This document shows positions 3,022-55,935 of a DNA stretch of 59,018 nt, one piece after another. Position 1 is the first letter of the stretch. Each line of letters opens with the position of its first letter. The notes below the pieces were generated by a model. The model made no database searches. It was not told the origin of the DNA and worked only from the letters and a program-made list of their open reading frames with translations. A program made the position numbers and the translations under genes. Origin of the DNA: Halomonadaceae bacterium T82-2. Lineage in GTDB: Bacteria; Pseudomonadota; Gammaproteobacteria; Pseudomonadales; Halomonadaceae. Where the stretch lies: NCBI GenBank assembly GCA_001577635.1, contig LSBP01000021.1, positions 1 to 59,018 of the forward strand, given 5' to 3'.

Positions 3022-3036
3022 CTCCCGCAGTCCCAG

Positions 3037-3053
3037 AGCACCAAACCAGTGCA
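3037..3053 (+). promoter_or_regulatory. NtrC-like site 2 upstream of amt
   Basis: The sequence AGCACCAAACCAGTGCA matches TGCACC-N5-GGTGCA at 10 of 12 defined positions. It is centred near -96 relative to the predicted start site. The 32-base spacing from site 1 copies the arrangement of the strong glnA enhancer in enteric bacteria. Confidence 0.6.
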
Positions 3054-3113
3054 TGGAAAGCATCGTTCTGGTGAGGCCTGACAACAACCCGCTGTTTTTA
3101 AATGGAAACAGGA

Positions 3114-5597: not shown

Positions 5598-7403
5598 TCA
5601 CTCGATCTCGATCAGTACCTCGCCGGGCGTGACACGATCGCCGCGCGACACGTGCACGGCCTTGACGCTGCCGGCGACCCGGGCATGCACCTCGGTTTCC
5701 ATCTTCATCGCCTCGGTGATCAGCACGGCCTGCCCTTCCTCGACGCGGTCGCCCGCCGCGACCAGCACGTCGACGATGTTGCCGGGCATCGAGGTGGTCA
5801 CGTGACCGGGCGCGGAGGCCTTGGCACGCCCCGACTCGCCGCCGCCGACATAATCGTCCTTGGCCTCGAAGACCACTTCCTCGGGCATGCCGTCCAGGGT
5901 CAGGTAGACCTGGCGCTTGCCGCCGGTGCGCCCCACCCCGGTGATCTGCACTTCGTAGGACTCGCCGTGCACGTCGATGACGAACTCGGTGGGCACGCCC
6001 TCGGTCACCGGTCGCTTGGCCGGCTCGGCGCTGGGCAGCGGTTCGGGCGCCAGGGTGCCGTCGCGGCGACCCTGCAGGTAGTCGCGTCCCAGGTCGGGGA
6101 ACATGGCGAAGGTCAGCACATCCTCTTCGCTTTCGGCCAGCTCGCCGATCTCGCCGGTCAGGCGCGTCATCTCGGGCGACAGGCTGTCGGCCGGACGCCC
6201 CTCCTCGACCGGCTCGTTGCCGATGGCCTGCCGACGAACGGTCTCGTTGACCTCGGCCGGCGGATGGCCATAGCCGCCCAGCAGGTAGCGCTTGACCTCG
6301 TTGGTGATGGTCTTGTAGCGCTCGCCGGTCAGCACGTTCATCACCGCCTGGGTGCCGACGATCTGCGAGGTCGGCGTGACCAGCGGCGGGTAGCCGAGGT
6401 CGGCACGCACTCGCGGAATCTCGGCAAACACCTCGCGAATCTTGCCCAGCGCGTTCTGTTCCTTGAGCTGGTTGGCGAGATTGGACATCATGCCGCCCGG
6501 CACCTGGTTGATCTGTACCGAGACATCCTCGCGGGTGAACTCGCTCTCGAAGGCAGCGTACTTCTTGCGCACCTCGCGGAAGTAGTCGCCCACCTCCTTG
6601 AGCGCCTCCAGATCCAGTCCGGTGTCATAGCCGGTCCCCTGCAGGGCGGCGACCATCGATTCGGTGGAAGGATGGCTGGTGCCGCCGGCGAAAGCCGAGT
6701 TGCAGGTGTCGATGTGCCGGCAGCCGGCCTCGACCGCCTTGAGCTGGCACAGCGCCGAGAGTCCGGAGGTGGCATGCGCGTGCAACTGGATGGGCACGTC
6801 GACGGCCTCGCTCAGCGCGGCGACCAGCTCCTCGGCGGCATACGGCGTGAGCAGCCCGGCCATGTCCTTGATGGCGATGGAATCGGCACCCATCTCGACC
6901 AGCCGCCGGGCCTGGTCGACGTACATCGCCAGGGTGTGCACCGGACTGACCGTGTAGCACAGCGTACCTTGGGCGTGCTTGCCGCTGGCCTTGACCGCGC
7001 GCATTGCGGTCTCGAGGTTGCGAAGGTCATTGAGCGCGTCGAACACCCGGAAGATGTCGATGCCGTTTTCCGCGGATCGGGCGACGAAGCGCTCCACCAC
7101 GTCGTCGGCATAATGACGGTAGCCCAGCAGGTTCTGGCCGCGCAGCAGCATCTGCAGCGGCGTGTTGGGCAGCGCGTCCTTCAGTGCGCGCAGCCGCTCC
7201 CAGGGGTCCTCCTTGAGAAAGCGCACGCAGGCGTCGAAGGTCGCCCCGCCCCAGACCTCGAGGGAGTGAAAGCCGATGGCGTCCAGCTGCGGACAGATCG
7301 GCAGCATGTCCTCGGTACGCATGCGAGTGGCGATCAGTGACTGGTGACCGTCACGCAGCACGACGTCGGTGACGTGGACCCGGTCGGGTTGCTTCGGGCT
7401 CAT
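5598..7403 (-). CDS. pycB: Pyruvate carboxylase subunit B (OadA-type carboxyltransferase plus biotin carrier)
   Basis: A 601-residue protein. Residues 1-300 form the carboxyltransferase TIM barrel (VTDVVLRDGHQSL, MLLRGQN, NDLRN, IKDMAG, HAHATSG, HIDTCNSAFAGG). A PycB/OadA conserved domain follows, and the C-terminus is a biotinyl domain with the biotinylated Lys in EAMKMETEV. It transfers carboxyl from biotin to pyruvate to make oxaloacetate. OadA of sodium-pumping decarboxylases is similar, but no oadB or oadG is present and the partner is a biotin carboxylase 10 bases upstream, so two-subunit pyruvate carboxylase fits better. The ATG at 7403 follows AAGGAGAG; the upstream in-frame extension is not needed. 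Confidence 0.92.
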   Translation of the reverse strand: MSPKQPDRVHVTDVVLRDGHQSLIATRMRTEDMLPICPQLDAIGFHSLEVWGGATFDACVRFLKEDPWERLRALKDALPNTPLQMLLRGQNLLGYRHYADDVVERFVARSAENGIDIFRVFDALNDLRNLETAMRAVKASGKHAQGTLCYTVSPVHTLAMYVDQARRLVEMGADSIAIKDMAGLLTPYAAEELVAALSEAVDVPIQLHAHATSGLSALCQLKAVEAGCRHIDTCNSAFAGGTSHPSTESMVAALQGTGYDTGLDLEALKEVGDYFREVRKKYAAFESEFTREDVSVQINQVPGGMMSNLANQLKEQNALGKIREVFAEIPRVRADLGYPPLVTPTSQIVGTQAVMNVLTGERYKTITNEVKRYLLGGYGHPPAEVNETVRRQAIGNEPVEEGRPADSLSPEMTRLTGEIGELAESEEDVLTFAMFPDLGRDYLQGRRDGTLAPEPLPSAEPAKRPVTEGVPTEFVIDVHGESYEVQITGVGRTGGKRQVYLTLDGMPEEVVFEAKDDYVGGGESGRAKASAPGHVTTSMPGNIVDVLVAAGDRVEEGQAVLITEAMKMETEVHARVAGSVKAVHVSRGDRVTPGEVLIEIE

Positions 7404-49958: not shown

Positions 49959-50043
49959 GCGGATGTGGTGGAATTGGTAGACACGCTAGATTTAGGTTCT
50001 AGTGCCGAGAGGCGTGGGAGTTCGAGTCTCCCCATCCGCACCA
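49959..50043 (+). tRNA. tRNA-Leu, anticodon UAG
   Basis: An 85-base cloverleaf with encoded CCA. The acceptor stem GCGGATG pairs with CATCCGC before the discriminator A (50040). D-loop GGAATTGGTAGAC, anticodon stem CTAGA/TCTAG around loop TTTAGGT (anticodon TAG), a class II long variable arm (GTGCCGAGAGGCGT), and T-arm GGGAGTTCGAGTCTCCC. It reads CUA and related Leu codons. An integrase gene begins 189 bases downstream, so the 3' part of this tRNA is the probable attachment site of the following element. Confidence 0.97.
50026..50037 (+). other. Candidate attL core in the 3' end of tRNA-Leu
   Basis: GTCTCCCCATCC covers the T-stem and acceptor 3' strand and matches a right-end sequence (58781-58792) at 11 of 12 positions. 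The location agrees with the usual target of P4-type integrases, but the repeat is short. Confidence 0.4.
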
Positions 50044-50169
50044 ACAAGCATTTCCCCATATCCTTCCAAACGCTCTCATATCAGCCACAAAGCCCATAAC
50101 TACGCGGTTTTCAGCCTGATTTAGCGCTTCCACATGCTCTCACACGGGGACATATACCCGTTGCCACCG

Positions 50170-50227
50170 TGTATGCCTCCTTGTATGCTCACCTGAAAAG
50201 CGAACTTTGGCATACACCGGGCATACA
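50170..50227. repeat. Integrase arm-type sites, left end
   Basis: TGTATGC at 50170-50176 and 50182-50188 (12 bases apart), then the inverted form GCATACA at 50210-50216 and 50221-50227. They lie between the tRNA and the integrase ATG. The first pair and its context, GTATGCCT-NN-TTGTATGC-N-CACC (50171-50193), recurs at the right end (58715-58737) with 20 of 23 identities. Confidence 0.65.
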
Positions 50228-50231
50228 AGAC

Positions 50232-51524
50232 ATGAAGCGAAGCCAGATCAAGCGCCGCCCCCTGGCGGATACCGTACTGGCCACCCTTGAGCCAGAGGAC
50301 AAGGCATACCGTGTAGCCGATGGCGGCGGGCTGTACTTCCGCGTGAAGCCCAACGGCTCCAAGTCCTGGGAACTGCGGTACAAGGCACCAGATACCAGCA
50401 AGTGGACGTGGTACGGCTTGGGCAGCTACACGGAACTGTCCGGCTCCAAGGCCCGTAAGAAGGCGCTGGAGGCTCAAGACCTACTCCGTGAAGGCATCGA
50501 CCCAGCCAAGCAACGTCGCGCTCAGAAGGCCGCAGAGGACGCTGCAAGGGCTAACACCTTCCGCCGTGCCGCTGAATACTGGTACGAACACAAGGAGAAG
50601 AACGGTCGCCGTGCCGCCACGCTCAAGGGAATGCGCCTGGCTCTCGATAGGGACATTCTCCCCGCCATCGGGGATCGCCCCATCGGTACGCTTGAGCATC
50701 CCGACTGTGTAGCCATTCAGGAAGCCATCGAGGCCCGCGGTGCCCACAACACCGCCGAGAAAGTGCGCGGCTGGCTGCGTGAAATCTTCGGCATGGCCGT
50801 GGCCAAAGGCTGGTGTTTCAGCAACCCCGCCTCAGAAATGCACCGTGTGGCCGCACAAGCGCCGAAAGAGAAGCAGCTCCCCCACCTATACGAGTCAGAG
50901 CTACCAGCCTTCCTGCGGGCTCTCAGGCAGACGCCCAGCCGTACCCTGGTCGCTACCGCCGCATGGATGACGGTCCTAACCGCTTCCCGCCCTGGCATGG
51001 TCAGGCAAGCCGAGTGGTCAGAGATCGACCTGGACAACGCCCTGTGGTCGATTCCCGGTGAGAAGATGAAGATGCATCTTCCCCACCTGGCTCCCCTGCC
51101 GACTCAGGTTGTCGAACTACTGCGTGAACTCAAACGCACTACGGGGCGGAGCAAGTGGGTATTCCCCAGCAACGGGCCTAAGAACCCTGTCCTGTCCGAT
51201 AACAGCATCAACAAGTGCTTTGCGCTGATCGGCTACAAGGGAAAGATGACCGGCCACGGATCGCGCCACACCTTCAAGACGCTGGTGAGCGAACACGGCT
51301 GGAAAACCGAATGGTCGGAACGCCACCTAGCGCACGTCAAGAAAGGCGAGGAAGCCACATACGACAAGGCGCAATACTTGGCCCCGCGACGCATCATGAT
51401 TCAGTGGTATGCCGACTATCTGGAAGCGCTGGAAGCGGGCATGACACCGGAGATACAAGCCGAGTTTGATAGCCGCGTGAATGTGCTGGGCGAGAACATC
51501 GTGGAATTGGTGAGGCGGGCGTAA
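50232..51524 (+). CDS. int: P4-family tyrosine integrase
   Basis: A 430-residue site-specific recombinase: an N-terminal DUF4102-type arm-binding domain (residues about 1-90, YRVADGGGLYFRVKPNGSKSW), a core-binding domain (about 100-200), and a catalytic domain. Catalytic residues: Arg in LTASRPGMVRQAEWSEID, H-x-x-R in TGHGSRHTFKTL, His/Lys region LAHVKKG and the nucleophilic Tyr in EEATYDKAQYL, followed by RRIMIQWYADYL as in P4-like integrases. The ATG at 50232 is chosen because upstream codons would be made from the arm-type repeats. Its stop overlaps the next ATG by one base (TAATG). Confidence 0.95.
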   Translation: MKRSQIKRRPLADTVLATLEPEDKAYRVADGGGLYFRVKPNGSKSWELRYKAPDTSKWTWYGLGSYTELSGSKARKKALEAQDLLREGIDPAKQRRAQKAAEDAARANTFRRAAEYWYEHKEKNGRRAATLKGMRLALDRDILPAIGDRPIGTLEHPDCVAIQEAIEARGAHNTAEKVRGWLREIFGMAVAKGWCFSNPASEMHRVAAQAPKEKQLPHLYESELPAFLRALRQTPSRTLVATAAWMTVLTASRPGMVRQAEWSEIDLDNALWSIPGEKMKMHLPHLAPLPTQVVELLRELKRTTGRSKWVFPSNGPKNPVLSDNSINKCFALIGYKGKMTGHGSRHTFKTLVSEHGWKTEWSERHLAHVKKGEEATYDKAQYLAPRRIMIQWYADYLEALEAGMTPEIQAEFDSRVNVLGENIVELVRRA

Positions 51525-52153: not shown

Positions 52154-52378
52154 ATGCAATTAGATACCCTCCCCGCTGACATGCGGATCATCTCCAAGCC
52201 CAGCCTTTGCCGCTCATGGGATATGACCCGGAGCGGCTTGGACAAACTGAGCAAGAATGACCCCACCTTCCCCCGGCCCATCAAGTTTGGCCAGACGCGC
52301 CAAGCTGGCTGTTACTTCGTCGTGGCTGAGGTCGAAGCATGGCTTGAAGCCAAGATGGCTGAGCGAGGTGCCGCATGA
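52154..52378 (+). CDS. AlpA-like transcriptional regulator/excisionase
   Basis: A 74-residue MerR-like helix-turn-helix protein: ISKPSLCRSWDMTRSGLDKLSKND, then FPRPIKFGQTRQAGCYFVVAEVEAWLEAKMAE, the pattern of AlpA proteins (recognition helix, P-x-P-x-x-x-G loop, and the Ex-x-x-W-L-x-x tail). AlpA of P4-type elements activates integrase or acts as an excisionase. The ATG at 52154 has AAGG eight bases upstream. The final codons overlap the next start (ATGA). Confidence 0.8.
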   Translation: MQLDTLPADMRIISKPSLCRSWDMTRSGLDKLSKNDPTFPRPIKFGQTRQAGCYFVVAEVEAWLEAKMAERGAA

Positions 52379-52626
52379 AGATTACAGACAATAGCGCCGC
52401 CTCTCAGTGCGCACGCATCCTGGTACGCCTTCACGAAGGCCCAGCCACCACCATCGAACTGATGCAGGAAATGAACATCATGCGCCCTGGGGCTCGCGTT
52501 AATGAGCTGCGTAAGCAAGGGCACAAGATCAACACGCACCTTCAAGATGTTTTCGATCCGTGGGGACGAAAGCACTCTCGCGTGGCCCTGTATTATCTAC
52601 CGACCCAGACTGACGAGGTGGCCTGA
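52375..52626 (+). CDS. Small winged-helix domain protein
   Basis: An 83-residue protein with a helix-turn-helix/winged-helix pattern: ARILVRLHEGPATTIELMQEMNIMRPGARVNELRKQGHKI, then a beta-wing ending HSRVALYYLP. It resembles the short winged-helix proteins found in prophage and satellite early regions, where they act as regulators. It is coupled to the AlpA-like gene by ATGA and to the next frame by TGATG. Confidence 0.75.
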   Translation: MKITDNSAASQCARILVRLHEGPATTIELMQEMNIMRPGARVNELRKQGHKINTHLQDVFDPWGRKHSRVALYYLPTQTDEVA

Positions 52627-53072
52627 TGCTTGCGCATATCATCCCGTCTCACTACCATGTCCGGGTTGCCGCAAATTCGGCAACCGACCTTGGCCGGTCG
52701 AATCCCGAATGGCGCACAAGCGCCCATATCGACGGCGCTATTTTTGTGCCCGTCAGTTATGGCGGCTGTGCGTGGGACGCTTTCGAGCGTGCCGGTTTCC
52801 ATTCGGGCCGGTCGGCCAACCCGCGTACAGTCGCCCCCATCCGTTGCTTGGCCGCAACCGGGGACGACTCCACACCGAATGGAGTCTCACCAATGGCAAT
52901 CCGCCTTCCCGCCCTTAGTGCGTCCGCACGCGCCGCTGCCCACCGGGCAATGGCGAAATCCGCCCTTTTCTCCAACTCAAGCACTGCCGTTCGTCTGCGT
53001 CGCTACAACGCGCACATGGACAAGGCCCGCGCCCTCGAAGCCGCTGCACGCGGTCAGGAGGAGGCGCAATGA
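52626..53072 (+). CDS. Ash-like leader frame and basic C-terminal segment (uncertain as a single protein)
   Basis: A frame of 148 codons. Its N-terminal half (to about residue 85) lies over a hairpin-rich region and may not be under protein selection. The segment APIRCLAATGDDSTPNG followed by an internal Met recalls Ash-family frames of P4-like satellites (the IECLAANGDSF type, from memory). An internal ATG at 52893, seven bases after a GACTCCA/TGGAGTC hairpin, would give a 59-residue basic helical protein (MAIRLPALSASARAAAHRAM, then SALFSNSSTAVRLRRYNAHMDKARALEAAARGQEEAQ). That shorter product is perhaps the real one. It overlaps the next gene by ATGA. Confidence 0.5.
   Translation: MLAHIIPSHYHVRVAANSATDLGRSNPEWRTSAHIDGAIFVPVSYGGCAWDAFERAGFHSGRSANPRTVAPIRCLAATGDDSTPNGVSPMAIRLPALSASARAAAHRAMAKSALFSNSSTAVRLRRYNAHMDKARALEAAARGQEEAQ
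52664..52886 (+). ncRNA. Candidate structured regulatory RNA (P4 CI-like)
   Basis: Four hairpins in about 220 bases: GGTTGCCG/CGGCAACC (52664-52685), CGACC/GGTCG (52685-52700), GGCGC/GCGCC (52711-52724) and GACTCCA/TGGAGTC (52866-52886). A central CCATTCGGG (52799-52807) is complementary to CCCGAATGG upstream (52704-52712) and to CCGAATGG downstream (52875-52882), so alternative pairing is possible. GGCCGGTCG is directly repeated at 52692 and 52806. The position and logic match the P4 immunity RNA, but no transcript is known. Confidence 0.45.
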
Positions 53073-53278: not shown

Positions 53279-53532
53279 CACACCACCTGATTCACACCCT
53301 GTATGGCTCGCTGTCCATCGAGGCTGAGCATAACTTCGAGGCGCTGCGCATCCTTGGCCGCCCGGATGCCGTGGTAGTCGAGCAATTCCCCGATGGCCGG
53401 TACGAGGCCACCCGCTATTTGCCTGACGTGGATGCGTTCTCAAGTTATCGCGCGGCATCGCCAACCCTGGCGCTGAACCGGGCGTTTAAGCATATCCGCG
53501 AGTGCGAGGAGGTGCTATGCAAGGAGCAATGA
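53275..53532 (+). CDS. Small hypothetical protein of the early operon
   Basis: An 85-residue protein, mixed alpha/beta in appearance (EALRILGRPDAVVVEQFPDGRYEATRYLPDVDAFSSYRAASPTLALNRAFKHIRECEEVL). The latter part looks like an amphipathic helix. It is not recognised. It overlaps the preceding gene by ATGA and the primase gene by up to 16 bases. Confidence 0.65.
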   Translation: MTHHLIHTLYGSLSIEAEHNFEALRILGRPDAVVVEQFPDGRYEATRYLPDVDAFSSYRAASPTLALNRAFKHIRECEEVLCKEQ

Positions 53533-54425
53533 AAACGCCCACGGCTGGGGACCAGTGGGCGGAGAAGCAGGGCATTGTCGTGAAGCTTGCGGCTGAAATT
53601 CTAGCACATACCGGCCTGAATGTTTCCATCGCCACCGATGGAGCCATTCACCGGCTGGACCACCCCGACAGCCGCAAGGGCAACAAGCGCGTCTGGTACG
53701 TGGCTCACCACGACTTCGCCTGCTTTGGCGTGTGGGGGCTGGTCGATACCCAGTACGTCTTTCCCGATGGCGAGCATGACCCCGAGGCCGCCGAGAAAGC
53801 CCGCCTGGAAGCCGAACGCGCCCGACAGGAACGGCAAGCCGAGCGTGAGCGTCAACACGCCCTGGTGGCCCGCCTGTGCCGCCGTGAGAAACCGGGACTA
53901 TCCCCGGCTGCCCCTGGCCATGCCTACCTGATCGCCAAGCGCTGCAAGCCGTTCGGGCTGCTGCAAGACGGTGACCGGCTGGTGGTGCCCATGTACTGCG
54001 AGGCGGGTCTGGTCAATTTCCAGTATATCGACGGTGACGGCATCAAGCGCTTTCGCCCTGGTGGTCGCAAGAAGGGCGCTTACTTCCCAGTAGGCGCACC
54101 CAAGCCGGGCGAGCCGCTGCTGGTCTGTGAAGGCGTGGCGACCGGGCTGACGCTGCACGAAGCGACCGGGTATGCCGTCGCCTGTGCGATGGACTGCGGC
54201 AACCTGCTGCCGGTCTGCCAGAGCTTGCGAGCGCGTCATCCTGCCGTGGCGATCATCGTCTGTGCCGACAACGACCACCGCACCCGTGGCAACCCTGGCG
54301 TCACCAAGGGCAAGGAGGCGGCGACCGCCGTGGGTGGCCGCTGTATCTGGCCCGAGTTTCCCGAGGGATTTGTGGGAACGGACTTCAACGACCTGGCTGC
54401 CGCTGGTGAGGAGGTGACGGTATGA
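53517..54425 (+). CDS. TOPRIM-domain primase (satellite/phage type)
   Basis: About 302 residues. N-terminal part with WAEKQGIVVKLAAEILAHTGL, a charged coiled linker (residues about 85-120, EAAEKARLEAERARQERQAERERQ), then RLVVPMYCEAGLVNFQYIDGDGIKRF and a TOPRIM domain: EPLLVCEGVATGLTLHEATG with the Glu, and AIIVCADNDHRT with the D-x-D metal site. It synthesises primers for element replication together with the neighbouring RepA-like ATPase. The ATG at 53517 has GAGGAGG five bases upstream; the ATG at 53529 would give an ATGA overlap like the other genes. Its end overlaps the next start. Confidence 0.88.
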   Translation: MQGAMKTPTAGDQWAEKQGIVVKLAAEILAHTGLNVSIATDGAIHRLDHPDSRKGNKRVWYVAHHDFACFGVWGLVDTQYVFPDGEHDPEAAEKARLEAERARQERQAERERQHALVARLCRREKPGLSPAAPGHAYLIAKRCKPFGLLQDGDRLVVPMYCEAGLVNFQYIDGDGIKRFRPGGRKKGAYFPVGAPKPGEPLLVCEGVATGLTLHEATGYAVACAMDCGNLLPVCQSLRARHPAVAIIVCADNDHRTRGNPGVTKGKEAATAVGGRCIWPEFPEGFVGTDFNDLAAAGEEVTV

Positions 54426-55417
54426 CAGCACCCCAACTGAAAAGCGTGGCTGAGGCCGTCCAGGAAACCGCCGATGAAATGCGCCTGCGGTCAGTCAGCG
54501 TTGCCGACCTTATCAGCATGGAGTTGCCCGAGAGGACCATGCTGCTATCCCCATGGCTGCCGTCCAGTGGGCTGGCGATGGTCTACGCGCCCCGAGGTAT
54601 CGGCAAGACGTGGTTTGCCATGTGTACCGCCTATGCCGTGGCGGCGGGTGGCGAGTTTCTGGGCTGGGAGGCCAGCGAGGCGCACCCGGTGCTGTATATC
54701 GACGGGGAGATGCCCGCGATAGCCCTCCAGGAACGCTTTGTGAGTGTGATTCAGAGCAGCCCCTACCAAGCCAGCCCGGACGCCCTGCAAATCCTGACAC
54801 CGGACTTGCAGAAGCGTGGTATGCCCGATCTGTCCACCCTCGAAGGGCAGGTGGCCATCGAGCCCTTTACCGATCCGGCCAAGCTGATCGTGGTGGACAA
54901 CATCGCCACGCTATGCCGGAGCGGCAAGGAGAACGAGGGCGAGAGCTGGCTGATGGTCCAGGAATGGGCCTTGAGGATGCGTTCGCAAGGCAAGACCGTG
55001 CTATTCGTTCACCACTCCGGCAAGGGCGGCCAGCAACGCGGCACCAGTCGCCGCGAGGACGTACTGGATACGGTGATTGGCCTTAAAGCCCCACGCGGTG
55101 ACGAGGACGCCCAGGGAGCTAAGTTTGAGCTGCACTTCGAGAAGAACCGGGGTTTCTATGGCGACGATGCCCGAAGCCGAGAGATCGAGCTGACCAACTC
55201 CCCGGATGGCCGCATATCGTGGGCCTACCAGTCTCTCCAGGACAGTACCTATCAGCGTGTCGTGACCCTGCTGAATGAAGGGTTGTTAGCTGCCGAAATC
55301 GCCCGCGAACTGGAGATCAACAAGTCTACCGCCCACCGGCACCAGAAGCGTGCCGAGCGCGAGGGGCTGTACTCGAAGCCCAAATCCAAGAAGAAGGAAG
55401 GGGGGCAGGCGGCATGA
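54422..55417 (+). CDS. RepA-like AAA ATPase/replicative helicase
   Basis: A 331-residue protein of the RepA/RecA-like AAA_25 type. Walker A APRGIGKTWF near residues 56-65, YIDGEMPA (the second acidic site), Walker B LIVVDNIATL near residue 157, sensor-type VLFVHHSGKGGQQRGTS with His, and a C-terminal helix-turn-helix LLAAEIARELEINKSTAHRHQKRA. This combination matches RSF1010 RepA-type hexameric helicases of small replicons. With the primase before it and iterons after it, it forms a compact replication module. ATGA overlaps on both sides. Confidence 0.88.
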   Translation: MTAPQLKSVAEAVQETADEMRLRSVSVADLISMELPERTMLLSPWLPSSGLAMVYAPRGIGKTWFAMCTAYAVAAGGEFLGWEASEAHPVLYIDGEMPAIALQERFVSVIQSSPYQASPDALQILTPDLQKRGMPDLSTLEGQVAIEPFTDPAKLIVVDNIATLCRSGKENEGESWLMVQEWALRMRSQGKTVLFVHHSGKGGQQRGTSRREDVLDTVIGLKAPRGDEDAQGAKFELHFEKNRGFYGDDARSREIELTNSPDGRISWAYQSLQDSTYQRVVTLLNEGLLAAEIARELEINKSTAHRHQKRAEREGLYSKPKSKKKEGGQAA

Positions 55418-55935
55418 CGCGAGAGCAAGAGTTGCAGGTTGCACCCCCTAGGGGACGCAACCTGCAACTTTCCGAGAACCGGGATGCAACTTTCAGCGCC
55501 AGTGATGCAACCGACGATGCAACTGCCGACCTGAAAGCCTTGGCTAACAGGTACTTAGAGCGCAAGAAGTGCAACCCGCCATGCAACCCGGATGCAACCG
55601 AAGGCCCGCAACCCATGCAACTTTCGGGGGGCAACGAAGCGGGAAAAGTTGCATCCGATGATGCCCCGGAGGCTTACAGCGAGGAGGTGCCAGACTGGCT
55701 TTCTTGGATCGCCGACCGCTGCCCCCTGCTGCCGGAGGACAAGACCCATATCGTCCGTGGCTTATACCGGCTGCACCCGAAGCGGCAAGCCAAGCTGGCT
55801 CAGTGGTACGTCTCCGCCTGGCGGATGGCTGCCGAGAGTGAGCCGCGCCCGGTGAAGAAAGAGAACGCCGGTCGTCGTGCTGCCAACTTGATCGTCACGC
55901 GATTGATGAAGGGCGGCGGGCAGATAGACCCGTGA
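55414..55935 (+). CDS. Hypothetical protein carrying the iteron array in its 5' half
   Basis: A 173-residue protein. The first 85 residues are low-complexity and disordered, shaped by the underlying iterons (DATFSASDATDDATADL, CNPPCNPDATEGPQPMQL). The C-terminal half (WLSWIADRCPLLPEDKTHIVRGLYRLHPKRQAKLAQWYVSAWRMAAE) is helical and basic and may contact DNA or the replication proteins. ATGA overlap with the RepA-like gene. It is probably an accessory replication protein; not recognised. Confidence 0.7.
   Translation: MTREQELQVAPPRGRNLQLSENRDATFSASDATDDATADLKALANRYLERKKCNPPCNPDATEGPQPMQLSGGNEAGKVASDDAPEAYSEEVPDWLSWIADRCPLLPEDKTHIVRGLYRLHPKRQAKLAQWYVSAWRMAAESEPRPVKKENAGRRAANLIVTRLMKGGGQIDP
55431..55653. 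repeat. Iteron array (11 copies of TGCAAC), candidate replication origin
   Basis: Forward TGCAAC at 55463, 55485, 55506, 55518, 55570, 55582, 55593 and 55616; inverted GTTGCA at 55431, 55438 and 55648. Spacings of 11-12 or 21-23 bases put most copies on the same helix face. It begins within the 5' end of the 173-residue gene, directly after the RepA-like gene. Copies fall in all three codon phases, so the repeat is probably selected as DNA, not protein. Confidence 0.7.

Follow-up and report, generated by a model that had tools for sequence, protein, structure and literature searches.

The Staphylococcus aureus pathogenicity islands (SaPI) and the phage-inducible chromosomal islands (PICI) encode an initiator helicase with a C-terminal DNA-binding domain, and their origin of short iterons lies directly downstream of its gene (PMC7581432; this and the other papers are cited from excerpts). 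PICI origins are located 3' of rep and have an AT-rich region between two sets of iterons (PMC6092414), and the helicase relatives of SaPI Rep belong to the DUF927 and Primase_Cterm/D5 families (PMC7581432). Here, we describe a locus in a 59,018-base stretch of Halomonadaceae bacterium T82-2 (contig LSBP01000021.1, hereafter the window), in which an integrated mobile element encodes a RepA-like helicase and carries an array of TGCAAC hexamers directly after repA, inside the open reading frame (ORF) of a 173-amino-acid protein. We consider it probable, judging from sequence, that this array is the replication origin of the element and is bound by the RepA encoded upstream. A putative origin read through by translation, as a first-pass annotation of this DNA had suggested, is the best-supported reading of the array. 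By analogy, the system would work like the SaPI/PICI origins, and because its helicase is of another fold family we treat it as a variant of this type of origin that stands outside the group itself.

As in SaPI and PICI, the array (here a candidate origin) sits directly 3' of the helicase gene, RepA carries a C-terminal helix-turn-helix (HTH; Pfam matches and a structure model) that would contact the DNA, and two groups of iterons flank an AT-richer gap, a pattern that takes a relaxed form in the window, with a modest AT excess (48% against 37%). The differences are that the RepA core has a RecA fold (AAA_25, RSF1010 RepA-like) and is not of the DUF927 or Primase_Cterm/D5 type, that the primase is a separate Toprim protein, that an extra CCCCTAGG palindrome is present, and that the array can fall within a coding sequence. 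In the profile search, RepA matched AAA_25 at 6.2e-28, with an RSF1010-RepA-like, RecA-fold core, and matched neither DUF927 nor a D5-type family within the E 0.1 limit. RSF1010 (IncQ) uses a separate protein, RepC, to bind longer iterons. The RepA of the window shares with that of RSF1010 a RecA-fold, hexameric-type helicase core (the hexamer being predicted), and the RSF1010 RepA matches extend to residues 270, 284 and 296 of the model, leaving the recognition helix (301-313) uncovered. No RepC was found among the 10 element proteins scanned, some small ORFs lying outside the scan. P4 and P1 have a C4-type RNA, and the P4 alpha protein fuses primase, helicase and origin binding. The element resembles P4 in its C4-type antisense RNA (RF01695, 78.8 bits), AlpA-like protein, tRNA-linked integrase, and primase and helicase genes, but here the primase (Toprim) and the helicase-HTH (AAA_25-HTH) are two separate proteins. 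The PLE (phage-inducible chromosomal island-like element) of Vibrio cholerae has a RepA_N initiator (PMC7145576), unlike the RecA-fold RepA-HTH found here. In lambda, the origin iterons lie in the translated gene O, with an AT-rich stretch adjoining, and the O protein binds them (PMC3349717). Similarly, the iterons of the window lie within a translated gene with an AT-richer stretch adjoining; however, this gene follows repA and would not be the binder's own if RepA is the binder, as we propose. In the open-access literature, covered as titles and beginnings of abstracts and with subscription papers mostly outside, neither the array nor a RepA-HTH with downstream iterons was found.

The array comprises 11 copies of TGCAAC between 55431 and 55653, eight on the forward and three on the reverse strand, and our recount returned the figures of the first-pass annotation. 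The rest of the window holds 18 copies, equivalent to 0.068 expected per 223 bases (Poisson P 3.5e-21), and the window in total, with 29 copies against 25.7 expected, is not enriched. The local enrichment is also seen in a count across the whole genome, where nine pairs of TGCAAC lie at most 26 bases apart and the array holds seven of them (the control, the reversed pattern, gave 18 matches, with places not listed). The forward copies are spaced by 22, 21, 12, 52, 12, 11 and 23 bases. The spacings of 11-12 or 21-23 bases described initially are correct for most copies, but one gap of 52 bases had been omitted, and this gap is meaningful. The N-terminal half of the 173-residue ORF covers the array, which is therefore in the 5' half of a coding sequence after a RepA-like helicase gene, and the codon alignment of this downstream gene places the TGCAAC copies in every one of the three codon phases, both as initially reported.

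In close relatives, nearly the whole array has changed its word in register. The RepA of Vreelandella olivaria (L001) is 81% identical to that of the window, and its array site has one TGCAAC; L013, from IMG/VR, has none. In the codon alignment with L001, the first iteron base changed from T to C in 10 of 11 copies and 0 of the 55 other iteron bases changed, against 84 differences at 213 surrounding sites of the N-terminal half; with L013, the figures are 11 of 11, 0 of 55 and 86 of 213. Halomonas organivorans (L002, RepA 76% identical) has mostly TGCAAC, with 3 of 66 iteron bases different versus 99 of 207 around them, and in L018, the most diverged relative, 21 of 66 iteron bases differ versus 116 of 207, with GGCAAC at six places. 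Similarly, in the sister pair L135/L137 (RepA 82% identical), the 14 CGCAAC of L135 align to nine TGCAAC, four CGCAAC and one gap; GCAAC is kept in 13 of 13 aligned copies, and of five extra L135 copies beginning with A or T, one is kept in L137. The peptide changes track the DNA word, such as CNP becoming RNQ and MQL becoming AQL.

These alignments qualify two statements of the first-pass annotation. It had named loss of the hexamers from homologous elements as evidence against an origin, and the TGCAAC word is lost in L001 and L013, but the sites are kept in register as CGCAAC. A test of word conservation would mislead, since 10 of the 11 sites in L001 have switched in place to CGCAAC; conservation of TGCAAC was dropped as a criterion for an array, as it fails in L001 and L013 though the array is conserved. 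It had also stated that the encoded peptide is not what is conserved, which agrees with iteron peptides that follow the DNA word but not with the C-terminal half of the protein, conserved in the five relatives aligned, or with an LKALA motif in the gap. The invariant is the layout and its match to RepA, not a specific word.

The same arrangement is common among more distant relatives. Counted loci were fetched through protein similarity and not through arrays. The array test was entered by 78 loci, of which 77 had enough sequence (L149, with 20 bases of downstream sequence, was left out) and 66 remained after a 90% RepA identity filter dropped 11 redundant ones. Contigs present under two identifiers (L013/L138, and L072-L082 versus later-fetched loci) were counted once, and the test did not extend to L195-L200 (E of 9e-14 and above) or L085-L125 (E of 1e-9 and above). 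We called an array when the count of the top 7-mer, from -20 to +400 of the repA stop, was reached by at most two of 200 dinucleotide shuffles. On this basis, 36 of the 66 non-redundant relatives carry an array after repA (33 and 39 at 0 and 10 of 200 shuffles), with spans beginning between -19 and 111 relative to the repA stop. Elsewhere in the same 36 loci, the array count was reached in 7 of 1014 stretches, all in L018, L142 and L164 and none in the other 33 loci. The array words include TGCAAC, CGCAAC, CGCACAT, GTAAACA, GGAAACA, GGCACAC, TGGACCA, CGTGACA and ATTAGGC. Moreover, arrays go with the HTH, called as a Pfam HTH at E 0.01 or better within the last 100 RepA residues: 31 of 49 loci with an HTH have an array versus 5 of 17 without (Fisher p 0.023, ignoring kinship; 0.004 when no shuffle reaches the count and 0.009 at 10 of 200).

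Genome searches, own genome included, gave 5 of 275 genomes at the family level and 9 of 369 at the class level; at the order level, with E 1e-40, the window's own genome stood alone among 390. The RepA protein matched 12 phage and 7 plasmid records, all below 60% identity, while the array DNA had no match among plasmid records and the 173-residue protein none among phage records. Used as a DNA pattern, the conserved core retrieved 48 IMG/VR stretches, which enter no count: L045 (the contig of L013) is a clear array, L047 and L050 have a similar palindrome with four NGCAAC, and the remaining 45 have one to three NGCAAC nearby. In the phages L047 (about 3036-3083) and L050 (about 6488-6535), the palindrome is made of GTTGCA pairs around CCCCCTAGG, with few other copies. 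Beside that of L050 there is no RepA-like gene among ORFs of at least 90 residues, and an ORF of 711 residues lies about 2.8 kb away.

The layout of the array can be read in several parts. In the window, a palindrome begins 13 bases past the repA stop and consists of two inverted iterons, a CCCCTAGG-like core and two direct iterons, an order that relatives keep with other words. Its score was reached by 0 of 40 shuffles, and as single-stranded DNA it folds at -18.8 kcal/mol (z -6.85). In 22 of the 36 arrays, the top-scoring inverted repeat within the first 180 bases scores above all of 40 shuffles. Of 21 palindromes picked by eye out of the 36, 16 have CCTA, read along the repA strand, among their 18 central bases, against 0.67 expected (the complement TAGG in 8 of 21). 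After the palindrome, direct iterons repeat every 11-12 bases on either side of a gap, forming two groups. A full triplet, a gap of 40-58 bases and another triplet are present in seven of the 36 loci (L003, L135, L145, L148, L156, L164 and L183, which between them use five clearly distinct words), whereas shuffling the spacing order gives a mean of 0.70 and reaches the observed number in 0 of 2000 trials; a relaxed pattern is present in 13, the window among them (null mean 4.6, again 0 of 2000). When 247 spacings are pooled, a period of 10.75 bases is favoured (0 of 5000), and the peak persists without L001, L138, L002 and L018. In addition, all 13 loci tested have a gap with more AT than the mean around it; the excess averages 0.10 and is often small in a single locus. 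This test did not include L185, which has the relaxed pattern, and added L002, which lacks it.

Other arrangements were also seen. In L141 (4097-4345), the first palindrome is followed at a distance of about 207 bases by another of its kind, and the L158 array, 65-341 bases after repA, is formed by mirror halves, with seven forward and then six inverted GTTGTA.

The word of the array varies together with the RepA HTH. The modelled HTH has helices at residues 272-285, 290-297 and 301-313 (pLDDT, the predicted local distance difference test score, 89-95 over the block), the last of them being the predicted recognition helix (KSTAHRHQKRAER). Across the 36 arrays, word similarity correlates with HTH identity after control for core identity (partial correlation 0.22, 6 of 5000 permutations, partial Mantel test), more strongly than it does with core identity after control for the HTH (0.11, 246 of 5000). 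Asparagine at RepA position 303, a threonine in the window, goes with CGCAAC in five of five NGCAAC loci (C of C+T 0.82-1.0); with threonine, C of C+T is 0.15-0.86 over eight loci, five of which have more T than C. Two sister pairs switch alike, the window (T) versus L001 and L138 (N), and L137 (T) versus L135 (N). The residue-303 comparison used 13 of the 23 loci with at least four NGCAAC, five with asparagine and eight with threonine (L126 and L145 have RST, not KST). It omitted the redundant L017 and L140, as well as L128 (R, C11 T2), L159 (S, C8 T1), L139 (K, T5 C2), L018 (KGT, G6), L130 (KGT, A3 T3 C2), L157 (Q, A3 G1), L166 (SRQ, C7 T1) and L178 (IST, C3 T1).

From these patterns, we infer a mechanism of binding, melting and helicase loading that would give the array its origin activity. 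The C-terminal HTH of RepA would bind each iteron and, because the iterons are about one or two helical turns apart, bound RepA would be placed on a single face of the DNA, while the palindrome would seat a symmetric complex around CCCCTAGG. The strands may open in the somewhat AT-richer gap flanked by the two direct groups. Self-loading of a RepA hexamer would come next, and the Toprim primase encoded alongside would begin synthesis. In this scheme, helical geometry would set the positions of the sites irrespective of the 173-residue reading frame, and a change in the recognition helix would be followed by a change of word in nearly the whole array, yielding replicons of new specificity. We could further speculate, giving the idea an even chance, that widespread RecA-fold (RSF1010-RepA-like) initiators gained their own HTH and a downstream iteron origin independently of the SaPI type, with the layout held and the word free to switch with the recognition helix, producing new compatible replicons.

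Several observations weigh against an origin bound by RepA. By our criterion, 18 of the 49 HTH loci have no array (weak cases include L004, L139, L144 and L157), and five of the 17 loci without an HTH call do have one, among them L003, with a clear array and an HTH at E 0.016. The window shows the relaxed triplet pattern only, with spacings of 21 and 12 where full-pattern relatives have 10-13 twice, and its gap is modest in AT (48%). In single loci, up to 48% of the other stretches are as AT-rich as the gap, and the 50-base stretch richest in AT between -300 and +900 sits 600 bases downstream of repA. Shared descent contributes to the likeness of layout among NGCAAC loci, and the difference between asparagine and threonine at residue 303 (Mann-Whitney p 0.003) is calculated ignoring kinship. 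Finally, L144, L145 and L179 have threonine yet more C than T, so there is no simple one-residue code.

The last of the AT findings, the AT-rich stretch 600 bases away, fits a model in which RepA binds the array for control (copy number, incompatibility or autoregulation of the repA operon) or for partition and replication starts elsewhere. Iterons often serve control besides initiation, and the C4 antisense RNA suggests a layered control of the operon. We nonetheless regard this model as unlikely, since a site directly 3' of the helicase gene, with a palindrome and two groups around an AT-richer gap, resembles the PICI/SaPI origins (PMC6092414, PMC7581432). A different binder is less likely still. 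The 173-residue protein could bind the array in its own gene, as an initiator or autoregulator, in the manner of lambda O, whose origin iterons lie within gene O (PMC3349717), and the conservation of its C-terminal half in the five relatives aligned is in line with this. That half is the conserved domain PHROG 852 (function unassigned), which is found downstream of repA at 10 of the 66 loci and is absent beside 26 of the 36 arrays; seven arrays (L133, L134, L152, L153, L158, L164 and L185) have no ORF of at least 60 codons over 70% of their span, and word similarity tracks the RepA HTH. Arrays occur in both coding and non-coding DNA, the window being a coding case. Because the domain and the covering ORF are missing so often, the putative origin does not seem to need the 173-residue gene; where a gene is present, it has been fitted to the sites. 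A simple pattern detects an LKALA-like peptide in the gap of 11 of the 36 array loci (55531-55545 in the window). Among the loci with the LKALA-type peptide are L003, L128 and L129, in which no C-terminal domain of the downstream gene was detected.

We attach even less probability to the array being a packaging signal, or some other signal recognized by a protein of a phage or of the host. L013 does encode small and large terminase, but these genes begin about 2 kb past its array, the words vary by locus following the RepA HTH, and TGCAAC is not enriched in the window. Chance, or a repeat selected at the protein level, has next to no probability given the Poisson value above, the three codon phases, the use of both strands and a peptide that follows the DNA word, and was ruled out by the concerted word change. 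An origin bound by RepA is thus the reading that we retain.

The array and replication genes are part of an element whose features are collected in Table 1. The C4 antisense RNA (52755-52841) sits upstream of the primase-repA operon, within an ORF at 52626-53072, and points to a P4/P1-type immunity control. The similarities found between the two element ends are an imperfect 24-base repeat (50170 and 58714) and a 12-base repeat (49954 and 58527), the former, a direct repeat, possibly representing integrase arm sites. In L013 (the same contig as L138; RepA 81-82% identical), genes for scaffold, major capsid, and small and large terminase follow the same module; therefore, satellites or small phages carry this module. 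With a tRNA-Leu-linked integrase, a C4 antisense RNA and a relative with capsid and terminase genes, it is plausible that the element is satellite-like, although the contig stops at 59018 and the far element end may be absent.

Table 1. Features of the element and its candidate origin (positions in the window)
Feature	Position	Strand	Evidence or remark
tRNA-Leu adjoining integrase	49959-50043	+	probable integration target
Tyrosine integrase	50169-51524	+	protein profile matches
AlpA/excisionase-like regulator, weak match	52154-52378	+	E 0.037 (below cut-off); PHROG 66, 6.8e-4
C4 antisense RNA, RF01695	52755-52841	+	78.8 bits, cut-off 45
Toprim primase	53502-54425	+	overlaps repA start; Toprim_3 4.3e-8, PHROG 2249 9.4e-60
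Proposed initiator, a RepA-like helicase of hexameric type with a C-terminal HTH	54422-55417	+	
RepA HTH, codons 272-313	55235-55360	+	Pfam HTH matches and structure model
173-residue ORF	55414-55935	+	overlaps repA stop by 4 bases; N-terminal half over array
Putative origin palindrome	55430-55469	+	13-base perfect arms, two iterons per arm, around ACCCCCTAGGGGAC
Two inverted iterons	55431-55436 and 55438-55443	-	TGCAAC count
Palindrome core CCCCCTAGGGG	55444-55454	+	central CCTA recurs among palindromic arrays
First direct TGCAAC	55463-55468	+	adjoining variant CGCAAC 55456-55461 completes palindrome
Iteron group 1	55485-55523	+	copies at 55485, 55506, 55518; spacings 21, 12
Gap between iteron groups	55524-55569	+	48% AT vs 37% around; encodes LKALA peptide
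Iteron group 2	55570-55598	+	copies at 55570, 55582, 55593; spacings 12, 11
Outer direct and closing inverted iterons	55616-55653		TGCAAC, direct at 55616-55621 and inverted at 55648-55653

These loci provide a series of natural initiator-origin pairs that is ready for use, including pairs that are 81-82% identical, with an apparent switch of specificity. An old question about iteron replicons, namely how a dozen sites can change their word and yet keep their function, becomes testable with natural proteins and DNA. Moreover, candidate origins may be found in unannotated satellites and phages directly after such a helicase gene. The gene written across the array suggests that the constraint on the DNA sites outweighs that on the peptide, and, if our reading is true, new compatible replicons would arise even where the sites span the three frames of a gene.
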